Origin: a virus
Virus record (IMG/VR): IMGVR_UViG_3300037502_003396
Span: 1-20,244 of that record
Strand: one strand, 5' to 3'
DNA: 20,244 bases
Below, in pieces: positions 15,171-20,244 of the stretch (position 1 is the stretch's first letter; every line of letters begins with the position of its first letter). The position numbers and the translations under genes were made by a program. The notes beneath the pieces were generated by a model. It did not search any database. It was not told the DNA's origin and saw nothing but the letters and a program-made list of their open reading frames with translations.

Positions 15171-16703
15171 TCACTCCTCGGCTGGCGGCGGCGGCGGCTG
15201 CGAGGGCCTGCCCTCGCGCTCCTGCTCGGACTCTGCGTACTCCGTCTCGATCTGCGCGACGACCTTCGCAAGCGTCTCGTCGTCCAGCGCGAGCGCGGCA
15301 CTGATCGCCTGCCGGATCGCGAGCACCGTTCCGGTCGCGCCGATGCGGTCGCCGACCTGCGTGAGCAGCAGCGTCGCCTTCGCAAGCGCCTCGGCGGGGT
15401 CGTCGGCCACGAACCGCTTCGGGTAGCTGAGCGTCACGGTGATGCGGTCGAGGTCGACACCGAGCAGATCGGCCACCAGCGACAGCGCCTTGCGTTCGTA
15501 CGCTTCGAGATCCTGCGCGAACTGCCGAGCGCGCGCCTCGAAGTCCCGCGAACGCACCCGCAGCGCCTCGCCGCTCTGCGTCTGCGCGCTCTGGTCGGCC
15601 TGCACCTCGAGGCCAGCGGTCCGGTAGGCGAGCGCGATCAAAAACAGGCAGTGCGTGCGCAGGTCGGTGAGCGAGTCCGGCGGGAACGTCACCCACTGCG
15701 GGCTACCGGCACCCTCGGGCGCGGGGAGCGCAGTGCCGGGGCCGACGCGCAGGTCAACCTCGGGCTCGATGCCACCCCGCGCCGTCGTCGGCACCGACAG
15801 GAACGGGGGCGCGCGGCGCTGCGTGTCCTCGACCTGCGAGAGCAACTGGTACACCTGTCGCCCGATCGCCGCCGGGGTCGCCGCGAGCGAGCGGCCCGAG
15901 GGCACGCGCGAGAGCGGGTCGCGACGGTGCGCCGCGAACACCACCGGCACGCGACCCGGCGTGGCGTTGGGACCGCTGGACACCGGCTGGCCGAGCACAG
16001 CCTCGCCGACGCCCTGCGACGTGCCAAGGCTGGCGACGTGGCGCTCCCAGCCCTCGCGGGTGTAGCGCCAGATGGTGACGATCTGCGTCTGGCGCGTCTC
16101 GTCGACCACCGCGTCGTCCGCGTACGCGAACTCGCTCAGCCCGTCGTCGTCGTAGCGCGCCCATGCCCACGCGGTCGGCGGGATGACCCGCGCGCGCACG
16201 CTGACCTTCGCAGCGATCTCCTCTTCGCGGGTCGTCGCGGCGTTGCGGCGCGGCGGCTCGATCACGACGGCGCAGGCGCCGTGCACCGCGATCTGCCGCG
16301 CCACGTTGCTGACGTGCTCGGGCCACCGGCATCCCTCGCCGTCGAGATCCTGCACGTAGGGGCCGAGGTCGCTGAGGTCGCGCGACACGCCAGGCGCAAC
16401 CGCGTCGGCGTAGGCGTCGACCACCGGCTCCGTCAGGTTCGCGTAGAACGCGAGGTGCCGACGGCGTCGGAAATCCGCCGGTTGCTCGCCCTGCCACGGG
16501 ACGAGGTAGGTTCGCTCGGTGCCGCGTGGCACCTCGACGGCGACCTCTCGACCGCTCTCGGTGCGGCGCAGTTCGTAACCGTAGAGGCGCGCGGTGCCCA
16601 GCGTCGGTGAGCTCGGGTGCTCCCAGTGCCAGCCGCCGCGGTAGGCGTCGCTCAAGAACGCGTGCCAGCCACGAGCCTCATCGAAGGTATGCCTGTCATC
16701 CAC
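15171..16703 (-). CDS. Portal protein (510 aa)
   Basis: It forms the dodecameric ring at the unique capsid vertex, through which the terminase pumps DNA. It starts with GTG at 16703 (MDDRHTFDEARGW), with GGAG seven bases upstream, and overlaps the large terminase end by eight bases. The length fits phage portals. Typical features are an N-terminal segment with NLTEPVVDAYADAVAPG, a central beta clip region (RVIPPTAWAWARYDDD, TIWRYTREGWERH), and a long C-terminal helical region (LALAYRTAGL-type helix; SGEALRVRSRDFEARARQFA, YERKALSLVADLLG). It ends in an acidic/Pro-rich tail (EEREGRPSQPPPPPAEE-like), probably disordered. The gene order terminase, portal, then capsid assembly is standard. Confidence 0.88.
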   Translation of the reverse strand: MDDRHTFDEARGWHAFLSDAYRGGWHWEHPSSPTLGTARLYGYELRRTESGREVAVEVPRGTERTYLVPWQGEQPADFRRRRHLAFYANLTEPVVDAYADAVAPGVSRDLSDLGPYVQDLDGEGCRWPEHVSNVARQIAVHGACAVVIEPPRRNAATTREEEIAAKVSVRARVIPPTAWAWARYDDDGLSEFAYADDAVVDETRQTQIVTIWRYTREGWERHVASLGTSQGVGEAVLGQPVSSGPNATPGRVPVVFAAHRRDPLSRVPSGRSLAATPAAIGRQVYQLLSQVEDTQRRAPPFLSVPTTARGGIEPEVDLRVGPGTALPAPEGAGSPQWVTFPPDSLTDLRTHCLFLIALAYRTAGLEVQADQSAQTQSGEALRVRSRDFEARARQFAQDLEAYERKALSLVADLLGVDLDRITVTLSYPKRFVADDPAEALAKATLLLTQVGDRIGATGTVLAIRQAISAALALDDETLAKVVAQIETEYAESEQEREGRPSQPPPPPAEE

Positions 16704-18024
16704 GGTGCAGCTCCATCACGCCGTATCGAAGGGCGTCCATCGCGTCGTCGTTGATCTTGTCCACGTCCTCCGTGAACCCGCCATCGCGACCACGACGCCG
16801 CGAGTAGCTCTCGAACTCGCCGATCGTATGCGCGCAGGCGTCCGAGATCCACAGCGCGCTGCGCCCGAGCACAGGGCCGCTCTGCACGCGCTCGACGGTC
16901 CACTCAAGCAGGGCGCTGACGCGCCGCAGGCCCTCGCCCACGTCGTTGCGCGCTTCGTACGTTCGCGCAGCGCCGCGCAGGTAGCGCCCGACGCTCTCGA
17001 TGTGTCCCGGCTGCGACGGGTCGCAGAACACCCGCGTCGCGCGGTAGCGCCGACACAGGTCCGCAATGATCGGGAGCCACCCGTCGCTTGTCGCCGCGAC
17101 GACCTTCCCGCGGTGCACCTCTTCGTGCAGCAGGTAGAGGTCCGCTCCGTCGGTGGCGAGCACCAGCGCGACGCCGGGGTGCGTCCAGCCCCAGTCGACA
17201 GCGACGATCACGTCAGCCCAACTGCGCCCCGCGAGGTCGCCCGCGCGGCGCACGTGCACGTCGCGCGAGAAGCTCTCGTAGACCTGCCCCTCGACGCTGC
17301 CGAACTCGGCATCAAGCCACTGGCGGCACCAAGCCTTCGTGGCGCCGGGGCGCGAGCGGAGCGACGCCTCGAAGTCCGACGGCAGGTGCGGGTTGTCACG
17401 GGTGCGCGCGCGCACGACGCGGCGCCTGCCGTCGGTCCACGACAGCGCGTCGCCGGTGCGTCCCTCGCCGGGGCCGGTCCCGAAGTCCAACGCCGTCCAA
17501 TGGCCCCGCGTCTGCGGCGGGCCGATCACGAGCTGCCGACGCTGGCGCCCCGGATGTCCTCGACGCAGACGCGCCGCGAGCACGCGGATGGGGTCGTGCG
17601 ACCGCTCGCGCGTCGCCTCGTCGAACACCAGCCACGCCGCGTTCATCCCCTCGAGGCTCTCGGTCGCGACGGTCGAGCGCAGCCAGATGCGCGACTCGCC
17701 AGCAGGCGTCGGGATCGCGAGGTACGCGCCGAACAAAGGGTCGCGGCTGAACCGCCAGCAGGCGCGCGGGATGTTGCGCTCCCACTCCGTGAACCAGCTC
17801 TGGAACAACAGCGGGAACGTCGGCGCGGCGACGATGCCAGCGAAGCCGGGGTGCGTCTGCGTCGCGAGCGAGAACGCCTCCCAAACGGCCAGCGTTGTCT
17901 TGCCGGTGCCGTAGCCGCACGCGGCCCACACCTCGGCCTCAGGCGCGTCGTGGATGGCCTGCTGCCGTTCGTGCGGGGCGTAGGTGACCACCACGCGGTC
18001 GAGCGGCTGCGCGGCGGCGATCAC
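16696..18024 (-). CDS. terL: Terminase large subunit (442 aa)
   Basis: The packaging ATPase and nuclease moves DNA into the prohead and cuts it. It starts with GTG at 18024, overlapping the small subunit stop as GTGA. Visible motifs are: Walker A ACGYGTGKTT (35-44); Walker B WLVFDEA (131-137, with D135 and E136); a likely coupling segment VIGPPQT (166-172); and the RNase H-like nuclease acidic residues in VAVDWGW (D277), FCDPS (D335) and NDDAMDALRYG (D426/D427 and D430). The length is in the normal range. The intact motor and nuclease motifs argue that the phage is functional or only recently defective. Whether it is a cos or pac enzyme cannot be read from the motifs alone. Confidence 0.96.
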   Translation of the reverse strand: MIAAAQPLDRVVVTYAPHERQQAIHDAPEAEVWAACGYGTGKTTLAVWEAFSLATQTHPGFAGIVAAPTFPLLFQSWFTEWERNIPRACWRFSRDPLFGAYLAIPTPAGESRIWLRSTVATESLEGMNAAWLVFDEATRERSHDPIRVLAARLRRGHPGRQRRQLVIGPPQTRGHWTALDFGTGPGEGRTGDALSWTDGRRRVVRARTRDNPHLPSDFEASLRSRPGATKAWCRQWLDAEFGSVEGQVYESFSRDVHVRRAGDLAGRSWADVIVAVDWGWTHPGVALVLATDGADLYLLHEEVHRGKVVAATSDGWLPIIADLCRRYRATRVFCDPSQPGHIESVGRYLRGAARTYEARNDVGEGLRRVSALLEWTVERVQSGPVLGRSALWISDACAHTIGEFESYSRRRGRDGGFTEDVDKINDDAMDALRYGVMELHRG

Positions 18025-18464
18025 GTCGCCTCGCGCGGGCGCACCAGCGACGCGGGCAGCTCGATCACGACGGTCGGCGTCTGCTGCCCCGCAGCGGCCT
18101 TGTCGGCCTCGGCCTTGGCAATGTCAGCCTCCCACCGCGCGCGCCGCGCGTCGTGCCGCGCCTTCGGGTCGCCGCGGCGGTGGTCGAGCTGCCACGCGGC
18201 GGCGCGCCAGTCTTTCTGCGCCGCCTTCGAGACGGTCGCCGCAAGGCCGACGTTGGCGGCGGCGTACGCCTCGCGCGCCCGCTCGACGAGCTCGCGCACG
18301 TCGTCGTTCGTGCACGCCCCCTCGCGCACGCTCTTCGACCAGTCCATCCATGTGCGCCAGGGGATGCCCGCGCTCTCCGCGGCGTCGCGGTAGAGCGCGC
18401 CAGCGCGCAGGGCGTTCAGCAGCCGGTCGCGCTTCTCGCGCGTGATGGCGTGCGCGCGACCCAT
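18021..18464 (-). CDS. terS: Terminase small subunit (147 aa)
   Basis: It recognises the packaging site on phage DNA and hands it to the large subunit. The ATG at 18464 shares one base with the upstream stop (TGATG). Residues 24-45 (LYRDAAESAGIPWRTWMDWSKS) form a helix-turn-helix. A helical oligomerisation region follows (AAWQLDHRRGDPKAR, ARWEADIAKAEADKAAAG). The C-terminus, PTVVIELPASLVRP, resembles the short strand tail seen in many small terminases. Size and linkage to the large subunit fit well. Overlapping starts and stops imply coupled translation from the methyltransferase gene through to the portal. Confidence 0.88.
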   Translation of the reverse strand: MGRAHAITREKRDRLLNALRAGALYRDAAESAGIPWRTWMDWSKSVREGACTNDDVRELVERAREAYAAANVGLAATVSKAAQKDWRAAAWQLDHRRGDPKARHDARRARWEADIAKAEADKAAAGQQTPTVVIELPASLVRPREAT

Positions 18465-19738
18465 CAGGCGATGAGCCGCGGCGTCAGACCTCGACCGGCG
18501 AGGCGCTCAAGCGTCACCGCAACAAAGCGCGGGTCAATCTCGATGCCAACGCAGACGCGACCACACTGCTCCGCTGCCATGAGGATCGTTCCCGAACCGC
18601 TGAACGGGTCGCACACTACGGGCGCGTCCATCATCCACAGGATCTCATGCGCCCACTCAACCGCCTTGCTGTGACCGTGCTCGTTCTCGCCGCATTTGTA
18701 CGGGCCTCGCACGCTAGGAAAATAATCACCGTTGCCGAACCTGCCGCGCGCGTTGCGACGGTGGAAAACGTGATCGGCGCCCGTCGTGATGAAGGCGTTT
18801 TGCCAGTGCATCACGAATGGCCCCGGCCATCGCGGCATGGAGCGCGGCATCGTGCGCAGCGAGACGACCTCGTACCAGAAGCGCACGCCCTCAACGCTGG
18901 CGATGCGAGCGTACTGCGGGCCACAGCCAGAGATGACCGCAGCGGGAGCGATGGCGAAACACACCGCCACCTGTTTCGCCGCGTCCCAGTCGTACGGCGG
19001 GTCAGTGAACACGACAGCAGGGCTGAGACCCGATAGCGCCCTCGCTCTGTCGTCTGCGCTGGTGGCATCCCCGCACAGGAGCCGGTGGACGCCGCCGTGT
19101 TGCGACGGGATCTCCCAGAGCTGCCCCGTGGCGGTTTGCCACTTCTCGCGCAGTTCCTCGGCGCGGTCGACGGGAGCCTCGTCCTCCTCGACCTCGGGTC
19201 GCTCTCCGGGCGCGTCGCCGTCGGCGTTGCCCTGCGCCAGCACGGCATCCCCCGCGGCCTTCACGAGCGCATCCAGCGCCTCGCCGCCGAAGCCCATGTC
19301 GGCCATCACGGCGGCGTCGCGGCCGAACTGCGCGGCCATCGCGACGATCGCCTCCGCTGAGTCGGTGCCCTGCAGGCCGCGGGCGTTGTCCGCGAGCGTC
19401 ATGGCGTCGGCCTCGGCGTCGGACACGTCGACGACGCGCACGGGCACGCAGCCGGGCGGACCGCCGAACGAGTGCTCGGCGCCGCCGCGCATCTCGCCGT
19501 CGACCTCGAGGCCCTGCAGGATGAGCTTCGCGGCCTCGAGGCGCCCGTGCCCGCCGATGATGCGGCGCCCTCGGGCCTGAGCGACGATGGGCGCGCCCCA
19601 GGCGGTGCGGAGGATGGTGCGGGCGAGATGCGCGACCTCGCTCCCGTGCAGGCGCGGGTTGCGCGGGTTGGGTCGCAGGTCGGCGACGGGGAGCCAGACG
19701 GCTGCTGTCGCGTTAGGTGCGGGTTTGGTGGCGGCCAT
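18464..19738 (-). CDS. ParB-like domain / DNA methyltransferase fusion (424 aa)
   Basis: It starts with ATG at 19738, with GAGG five bases upstream. Residues about 15-135 are a ParB/Srx-type N-terminal domain, with LRPNPRNPRLHGSEV, GGHGRLEAAKLIL and ADAMTLADNARG. An acidic linker follows (EVEEDEAPVDRAEELREKW). The C-terminal amino-methyltransferase has DPPY at about 247-250 (motif IV) and DPFSGSGT at 377-384 (motif I, S-adenosylmethionine binding), followed by GIEIDPRFV. DPPY before FSGSGT indicates the permuted beta-class order. It should methylate N6-adenine or N4-cytosine. No cognate restriction enzyme is visible, so it is probably an orphan enzyme used to protect or mark phage DNA, perhaps near the packaging site. 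Such fusions are common in phages beside the terminase. Confidence 0.92.
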   Translation of the reverse strand: MAATKPAPNATAAVWLPVADLRPNPRNPRLHGSEVAHLARTILRTAWGAPIVAQARGRRIIGGHGRLEAAKLILQGLEVDGEMRGGAEHSFGGPPGCVPVRVVDVSDAEADAMTLADNARGLQGTDSAEAIVAMAAQFGRDAAVMADMGFGGEALDALVKAAGDAVLAQGNADGDAPGERPEVEEDEAPVDRAEELREKWQTATGQLWEIPSQHGGVHRLLCGDATSADDRARALSGLSPAVVFTDPPYDWDAAKQVAVCFAIAPAAVISGCGPQYARIASVEGVRFWYEVVSLRTMPRSMPRWPGPFVMHWQNAFITTGADHVFHRRNARGRFGNGDYFPSVRGPYKCGENEHGHSKAVEWAHEILWMMDAPVVCDPFSGSGTILMAAEQCGRVCVGIEIDPRFVAVTLERLAGRGLTPRLIA

Positions 19739-19922
19739 CGAGCCTCACAGCGTCGTGGGGGATGCGCCCGAGCTGCGCGGCTCGGACTTCGTCGAGAGAG
19801 GAGCAGAGGACGACGCGCTGTCCGACGACGAGTCGGACGGCCTCGCCCCGACGGAGCGTCTGCCGTGCCTCGTCGAGCTCTGCGGTGTCGAGTGCGCTGG
19901 GCTGCGGGGAGCGTTTCGCCAC
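19713..19922 (-). CDS. Small hypothetical protein at head of the late operon (69 aa)
   Basis: The only conventional start in this frame is GTG at 19922, which lacks a clear ribosome binding site. The frame is open upstream to a TAG near 20090 and contains a protein-like stretch (GVVVFDGAIAARDTAD), so the true start is uncertain. Codons have GC-rich third positions like the neighbours. The peptide (LDEARQTLRRGEAVRLVVGQ, SSLDEVRAAQLGRIP) is mixed helix and strand, and no family is recognised. It overlaps the methyltransferase start by 26 bases, and its end carries that gene's ribosome binding site. It could be a leader peptide or regulator; existence is likely, function unknown. Confidence 0.5.
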   Translation of the reverse strand: MAKRSPQPSALDTAELDEARQTLRRGEAVRLVVGQRVVLCSSLDEVRAAQLGRIPHDAVRLDGRHQTRT

Positions 19923-19966
19923 GTCTGCAGTGTCGCGCGCCGCGATGGCGCCGTCAAATACGACGA

Positions 19967-19990
19967 CGCCCGCGGCAAGACCCGCGGGCG
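19967..19990. terminator. GC-rich hairpin, possible weak terminator or leader structure
   Basis: A perfect nine-pair stem, CGCCCGCGG with CCGCGGGCG, encloses a six-base loop. On the minus strand it is followed by TCGTCGTATTTG, a poor T tract, so termination of a transcript entering from the right would be weak. It lies about 45 bases upstream of the first small gene and may equally be a leader attenuator. Confidence 0.35.
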
Positions 19991-20064
19991 ACGGCGTGCT
20001 GGTCGGCGTGGGAGAGACGGACGACCGGGAGGGACCATGCCGCAGGGCGCGGCGGGGGTCAACT

Positions 20065-20139
20065 GCTACGCCGCTACATCGACGCTACGTGCTCTGCTAC
20101 GTGTCGAAACGCTTCAAAACAAGGCTGCTACGCTGCTAC
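20065..20139 (+). repeat. Cluster of six GCTAC repeats
   Basis: GCTAC occurs at 20065, 20073, 20084, 20096, 20127 and 20135, with a degenerate ACTAC at 20143. Spacings are 8, 11, 12, 31 and 8 bases. Several copies extend to GCTACG or TGCTAC. The inverse unit GTAGC recurs at 20222, 20229 and 20237 on the other side of the AT-rich core. Confidence 0.75.
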
Positions 20140-20154
20140 ACCACTACTCTTATA

Positions 20155-20166
20155 GAGAGAGAGAGA
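20155..20166 (+). repeat. GA dinucleotide repeat (six units)
   Basis: Six GA units follow TATA and lead into ATTATATTTTATT. On the minus strand this is a pyrimidine tract (CT repeats) directly after TATAAT. It is the only AT-rich, low-complexity patch seen in this very GC-rich window. Confidence 0.85.
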
Positions 20167-20171
20167 TTATA
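20166..20171 (-). promoter_or_regulatory. Candidate -10 box TATAAT for late operon
   Basis: The minus strand reads AAAATATAATCTCTC here, a perfect -10 consensus pointing toward the late genes. No TTGACA-like -35 is found at 16-18 bases; that place is occupied by a GC hairpin. It may be an activator-dependent promoter, or chance in an AT-rich patch. Confidence 0.35.
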
Positions 20172-20178
20172 TTTTATT

Positions 20179-20202
20179 GGGGGCGCGCGCGAGGGCGCCC
20201 CC
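20179..20202. repeat. GC-only inverted repeat flanked by TATTGGG
   Basis: GGGGGCGC (20179-20186) pairs with GCGCCCCC (20195-20202) across an eight-base loop. A seven-base direct repeat, TATTGGG, begins at 20175 and again at 20204, bracketing the hairpin. No T tract follows on either strand. Confidence 0.6.
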
Positions 20203-20221
20203 CTATTGGGAGCATGGGGGC

Positions 20222-20241
20222 GTAGCGGGTAGCGGTGTAGC
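20222..20241 (-). repeat. Three GTAGC units, inverse of the GCTAC cluster
   Basis: GTAGC at 20222, 20229 and 20237 (spacings 7 and 8) is the reverse complement of the cluster at 20065-20139. The array reaches the window edge and probably continues. Confidence 0.65.
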
Positions 20242-20244
20242 GGT

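Follow-up and report, generated by a model that had tools for sequence, protein, structure and literature searches.

A GTAGC iteron array 3' of a Prim-Pol/VapE helicase gene is a probable SaPI/PICI-type replication origin in a phage contig

The array and its neighbours

The stretch of DNA analysed here (the window) makes up an entire IMG/VR record, 20,244 bases long and 71% GC. Its right end carries six GCTAC units on the plus strand (20065-20139; starts at 20065, 20073, 20084, 20096, 20127 and 20135) and three on the minus strand, read as GTAGC on the plus strand (20222-20241; starts at 20222, 20229 and 20237). Both arms face the lowest-GC stretch of the window, TTATAGAGAGAGAGAGATTATATTTTATT, whose GA-repeat core at 20150-20178 is 79% AT and accommodates every 30-mer of the window with 30% GC or less. 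The array and the genes downstream of it are laid out as follows:

16696-18024, minus strand: terminase large subunit, TerL (phrog_2, E 6e-29)
18021-18464, minus strand: terminase small subunit, TerS (phrog_4102, E 5e-18)
18464-19738, minus strand: ParB-like/DNA methyltransferase, first large gene of the downstream operon (PHROGs 498/723, Pfam PF01555)
19713-19922, minus strand: 69-aa ORF between the putative origin and the ParB-methylase gene, with no Pfam or PHROG match
20065-20100, plus strand: four GCTAC iterons, the outer units of the six-unit arm (starts 8, 11 and 12 nt apart)
20105-20124, minus strand: conserved inter-iteron element, CCTTGTTTTGAAGCGTTTCG on that strand; possibly a second binding site
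20127-20139, plus strand: two GCTAC iterons, the inner pair of the six-unit arm, next to the core (starts 8 nt apart)
20148-20179, no strand: AT-rich core with an (AG)n tract at 20154-20166; candidate DNA-unwinding element in the lowest-GC stretch of the window
20179-20202, no strand: GC hairpin (arms 20179-20186 and 20195-20202)
20222-20241, minus strand: three inverted iterons forming the other arm (GTAGC on the plus strand; spacings 7, 8), a three-unit arm kept in relatives
20244, minus strand: inferred end of the Prim-Pol/VapE helicase gene, which lies beyond the window (final base of its stop codon, from the L005 alignment)

The first-pass annotation, made from the sequence alone, had noticed inverted clusters facing an AT-rich core in GC-rich DNA ahead of a terminase-linked operon. 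All of this holds, the "at least three" GTAGC units of that description being exactly three. GCTAC is mildly over-represented throughout the window (47 occurrences vs 23 in shuffles), so that the signal lies in the density of the units and not in their mere presence: nine of them fit into fewer than 183 nt, and no 200-nt stretch in the rest of the window holds more than three (Poisson probability of nine or more about 1.5e-10, with the rate outside the array as background). The GC hairpin was considered as a terminator and dropped, as it received no terminator call and the perfect hairpin is not kept in relatives.

Conservation in relatives

A blastn search in distant mode with positions 17000-20244 gave no match among GenBank phages. 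Relatives reaching past the window edge were therefore taken from IMG/VR by protein, with the ParB-methylase and TerL as queries. The same array was found in six contigs (L002, L005, L010, L011, L031 and L032), and its copy in L005 (IMGVR_UViG_3300032116_000919) shows 0 mismatches in 183 nt. The reverse complement of the window starts at position 2679 of L005, where a VapE gene has its TGA stop codon (2677-2679). The supposition that the array continues past the edge is thus incorrect: in L005, its identical copy stops where the preceding gene ends, the last base of that gene's stop codon matching base 20244, and the array is complete at nine units. As the last base of the window falls in the stop codon of the helicase gene, this gene cannot be seen in the window. 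The first iteron starts two bases past that codon, the position expected of an origin immediately 3' of an initiator gene. In the direction of the terminase operon, the stop codon is followed by three iterons spaced 8 and 7 nt apart, some 87 nt with the core and a CT/AG tract, a pair of iterons (8 nt), a 31-nt step bearing the conserved CCTTG..GTTTCG element and finally four iterons (12, 11 and 8 nt). Two iteron sets, three and six inverted GTAGC units, hence flank the AT-rich stretch.

This arrangement (three iterons, core, two iterons, element, four iterons) keeps its spacing within 1-2 nt in L002, L005, L010, L011, L032 and L039. The iteron bases are identical at 43-45 of 45 positions in pairwise comparisons vs 60-79% outside them (Fisher p 2e-4 to 4e-9). 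The iteron consensus derived from 54 sites is G-Y-GTAGC-R-G, in which GTAGC was the search word and is hence invariant by construction. The element at 20105-20124 is near-invariant in the group of L005, L002 and L032 and mostly kept in L010 and L011; CTCTCTCTATAAGAG (minus strand) of the AT-rich core is also conserved in relatives. The annotation had held that the array should be discounted if GCTAC/GTAGC occurred at equal density elsewhere or if relatives lacked the array; it is conserved, and no similar cluster was seen elsewhere in three long related contigs. The cumulative GC skew, proposed as a further check for an origin, gave no usable extremum: two of the three long relatives have no clear one at the array, and the third (G003) has a minimum at 22629, about 500 nt from the array, where the skew is weak and the contig ends nearby.

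Several further features of the array were observed in the wider set. The (AG)n tract at 20154-20166, beside TATA, is more conserved than AT-richness as such, L039 retaining CTCTCTCTCTCTCTATAAGAG and few other AT bases, and L007 and L027 carry GAGAGAGAG in a mirrored core. L004 has a 14-nt relative of the 20105-20124 element, GCCCTGAAAACAAG, in inverted orientation, and the putative origin of L027, which is mirrored, has a looser one.

The adjoining helicase gene

The annotation had also called for a search for the gene of a DNA-binding protein beside the array. In L005, L002 and L011, the gene that ends there can be read, and it encodes Prim-Pol, PriCT-1 and VapE-like domains (Pfam; in L005, E 4e-78 for the VapE-like domain and 1e-47 for Prim-Pol), and in L005 a VRR-NUC gene precedes it. 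A profile of the helicase matches PDB 7pds (E 2e-84). An AlphaFold model of residues 285-686 of the L005 protein (pLDDT 94, pTM 0.89) ends in a helix-helix-strand-strand succession, the pattern of a winged helix. Among structures of similar fold, the six chains of 7pds ("The structure of PriRep1 with dsDNA") rank first (best E 7e-29), ahead of the NrS-1 and D5-type primase-helicases. The helicase is homologous to PriRep1 and, as read from relatives, has the features of an SF3 helicase initiator of the VapE/D5 type, with a predicted C-terminal DNA-binding domain.

The repeat word and the helicase C-terminus

Among the relatives, four contigs amount to natural swaps. In L004, the ParB-methylase (98%), TerS (100%) and TerL (99%) are nearly those of the window, and the Prim-Pol domain is 91% identical to that of L005; the C-terminus of its helicase is only 31% identical, and its iteron is GGTAAC. 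L027 has a TerL at 98%, a helicase C-terminus at 40% and the iteron CCTTAC. The reverse situation is found in L011, which still has GTAGC with a helicase C-terminus at 64%, a TerS at 31% and a TerL at 58%. In L028 (TerL 98%), the replication module has been exchanged, a DnaB-type helicase (L028:3065-4540) replacing Prim-Pol/VapE, and no GCTAC cluster or obvious array was seen in this contig. Because of these four cases, the repeat word, as judged by sequence comparison, follows the helicase C-terminus and not the packaging genes.

The gene of L004 (L004:1446-3491) is itself a chimera, in which the identity drops from the Prim-Pol domain to 63% in the helicase part before reaching its low value at the C-terminus; this natural domain swap coincides with the change of iteron.

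The swaps could instead reflect linkage, the 3' end of the helicase gene and the intergenic region being exchanged as one segment. The retention of the word in L011 and the constancy of the spacing favour functional matching over linkage, short of proof. More generally, helicases with more similar C-termini tend to be followed by more similar iterons (Spearman 0.22, Mantel p 0.001), an effect that is real but modest, and the partial correlation is 0.19 for the C-terminus given the helicase core vs 0.09 for the core given the C-terminus.

These cases bear directly on the readings first offered for the array, namely an iteron origin, a multi-site operator and a terminase-binding region: the first is strongly supported, and the natural swaps make the other two unlikely. 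Sites bound by terminase commonly consist of several units close to terS, and the array does lie upstream of the ParB-methylase, TerS and TerL genes, as a packaging start (pac or cos) recognised by TerS might. Site and terminase genes are not conserved together, however. L004 has GGTAAC in spite of nearly identical terminase subunits, L027 and L028 have CCTTAC or no array found with a TerL at 98%, L011 keeps GTAGC with divergent subunits, and many elements have a similarly built array behind VapE whatever the neighbouring genes, all of which makes a packaging start very improbable.

We also consider it highly unlikely that the array is a multi-site operator or a ParB-type centromere, controlling the ParB-methylase/terminase operon or bound by its products. 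The array is upstream of that operon, whose first gene has a ParB-like N-terminus, but L004 combines a nearly identical ParB-methylase with another repeat, and the 69-aa ORF is retained in L004, L027 and L028 even though these have another array or none. A scan of the region for promoters and terminators found none, and no sigma-70-like promoter in particular, although such a scan is of limited value here. Moreover, in L046 and L049 the GTAGC word is present in a layout mirrored relative to the helicase gene, as expected of an origin and not of a promoter-linked operator.

Least probable of all is an origin of the pRN1 type, in which a hairpin of the inverted arms would be recognised in place of an iteron word: the fold of the region scores better than that of shuffled sequences (z -4.1), and pRN1 ORF904, also a primase-SF3 helicase-winged-helix protein, requires a 100-nt stem-loop 3' of its gene (PMC4234260), but any inverted repeats fold in this way, six units against three with variable spacers leave the pairing ambiguous, the GTAGC word and its spacing are conserved above their surroundings, and the iteron word co-varies with the helicase C-terminus. 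The stem-loop and iteron models both make the array an origin.

Arrays behind other VapE helicases

Relatives of the VapE helicase were gathered from viral contigs and bacterial genomes, giving 140 non-redundant loci, and significant 6-mer arrays (p <= 0.01 vs dinucleotide shuffles) were sought in 400-nt bins from -3.2 to +3.6 kb. Such an array is present at -20 to +380 from the VapE stop codon in 55.7% of the 140 loci, vs 0.7-6.5% in the 16 other bins. The method misses degenerate and displaced arrays, so that 56% is a lower bound, silent on the remaining loci; about 44% have no array at the tested place by this 6-mer method, some being displaced. Strong arrays, present in 66 loci, make use of both strands. 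On crossing the widest gap between iterons, the strand that carries most of the units changes in 45 of the 55 scorable loci, and the lowest-GC 30-mer falls in that gap in 42 of the 66 (16 expected).

The origins of S. thermophilus phages adjoin the primase gene. Among 16 isolate phage and satellite records, eight have an array directly 3' of the helicase gene (Streptococcus SMP, Corynebacterium Troy, Paenibacillus Bloomfield, Yersinia YeP5, Acidovorax ACF1, Lactococcus 1358, APSE-1 and the satellite Javan608). Three more have one 380-740 nt downstream (Haddon, vB_Pae_U5 and D4446, the last with a TGACCA array 0.5 kb after the helicase), which brings the total to 11; the remaining five have none at these places. 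In the 5.8-kb cyanobacterial plasmid pAL20115c (L208), a strong array of 12 TACTCA copies lies inside the 3' end of the VapE gene and not behind it, at -491 to -124 from the stop codon.

Comparison with known systems

The alpha protein of bacteriophage P4, with its ori/crr, acts on iterons and uses two separated sites. Here, neither the window nor the three long relatives showed a second array, a difference from P4. The likeness is that alpha, which initiates replication, is also a primase-helicase fusion (PMC7145576).

The closest parallel lies in the rep-ori modules of SaPIs and other PICIs (EcCICFT073, SaPIbov1 and EfCIV583), compared here by their published descriptions. In these islands, a helicase-initiator gene, with the primase separate or fused, is followed immediately 3' by the origin, made of two iteron sets flanking an AT-rich region (PMC6092414), and specificity is ascribed to the C-terminal domain of Rep (PMC7581432). 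The array described here differs in its GTAGC word, its 6 + 3 units, its (AG)n core and the fusion of Prim-Pol to VapE. The window also carries TerS, TerL and portal genes, whereas a PICI is a satellite without its own full packaging and virion set; what is found is a PICI-like replicon in a phage contig with its own packaging genes, and the element itself is not a PICI.

In SCCmec, the 5-nt iterons (AAGTG) that lie downstream of the Cch2 gene are bound by the C-terminal domain of this helicase (PMC7581432), but these are only three direct repeats, and the polymerase/primase is the CCPol-MP complex, not a fused Prim-Pol. ORF904 of pRN1 and its counterpart in Bordetella phage BIP-1 share with the present system a primase-SF3 helicase-winged-helix protein and an origin element 3' of the gene (PMC4234260); there, however, a long stem-loop is the proposed recognised element, and the BIP-1 repeats were not judged an origin. 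Earlier reports of such origins in single phages may exist.

A proposed origin and its meaning

We conclude that the array is very probably a phage replication origin of the SaPI/PICI type that would be recognised by the C-terminal domain of the adjoining helicase. This reading is based on the position and anatomy of the array, the conservation of iterons and spacing, the co-variation of the iteron word with the helicase C-terminus and not with the packaging genes, and the homology to PriRep1. By analogy with SaPI Rep and Cch2 (PMC7581432) and with the PICI origins (PMC6092414), the C-terminal winged helix of the Prim-Pol/VapE helicase would bind the G-Y-GTAGC-R-G iterons, so that two helicase assemblies would form on the inverted arms of six and three units, facing the AT-rich/(AG)n core. 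The core would then melt and the helicase load itself, after which the Prim-Pol domain would prime synthesis and give rise to two forks.

More tentatively, and with the balance somewhat against it, the helicase C-terminus and the iteron origin may form one cassette that is swapped among phages with near-identical packaging operons, changing their replication specificity. If so, such a swap could spare a phage the competition of co-infecting relatives, or keep satellites with the same type of origin from hijacking it. If the proposed recognition is correct, the winged helix of VapE would carry a readable code for a word of 5-6 nt, and origins would become predictable for many phages and elements annotated with a "virulence-associated" VapE. 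The presence of arrays directly behind VapE helicases in over half of the 140 loci and in eight of the 16 isolate records provides a simple rule for finding candidate origins in many phages, prophages and islands, and the natural helicase/iteron swaps are material for working out how the domain reads DNA. It also argues against taking "virulence-associated protein E" as a virulence factor.
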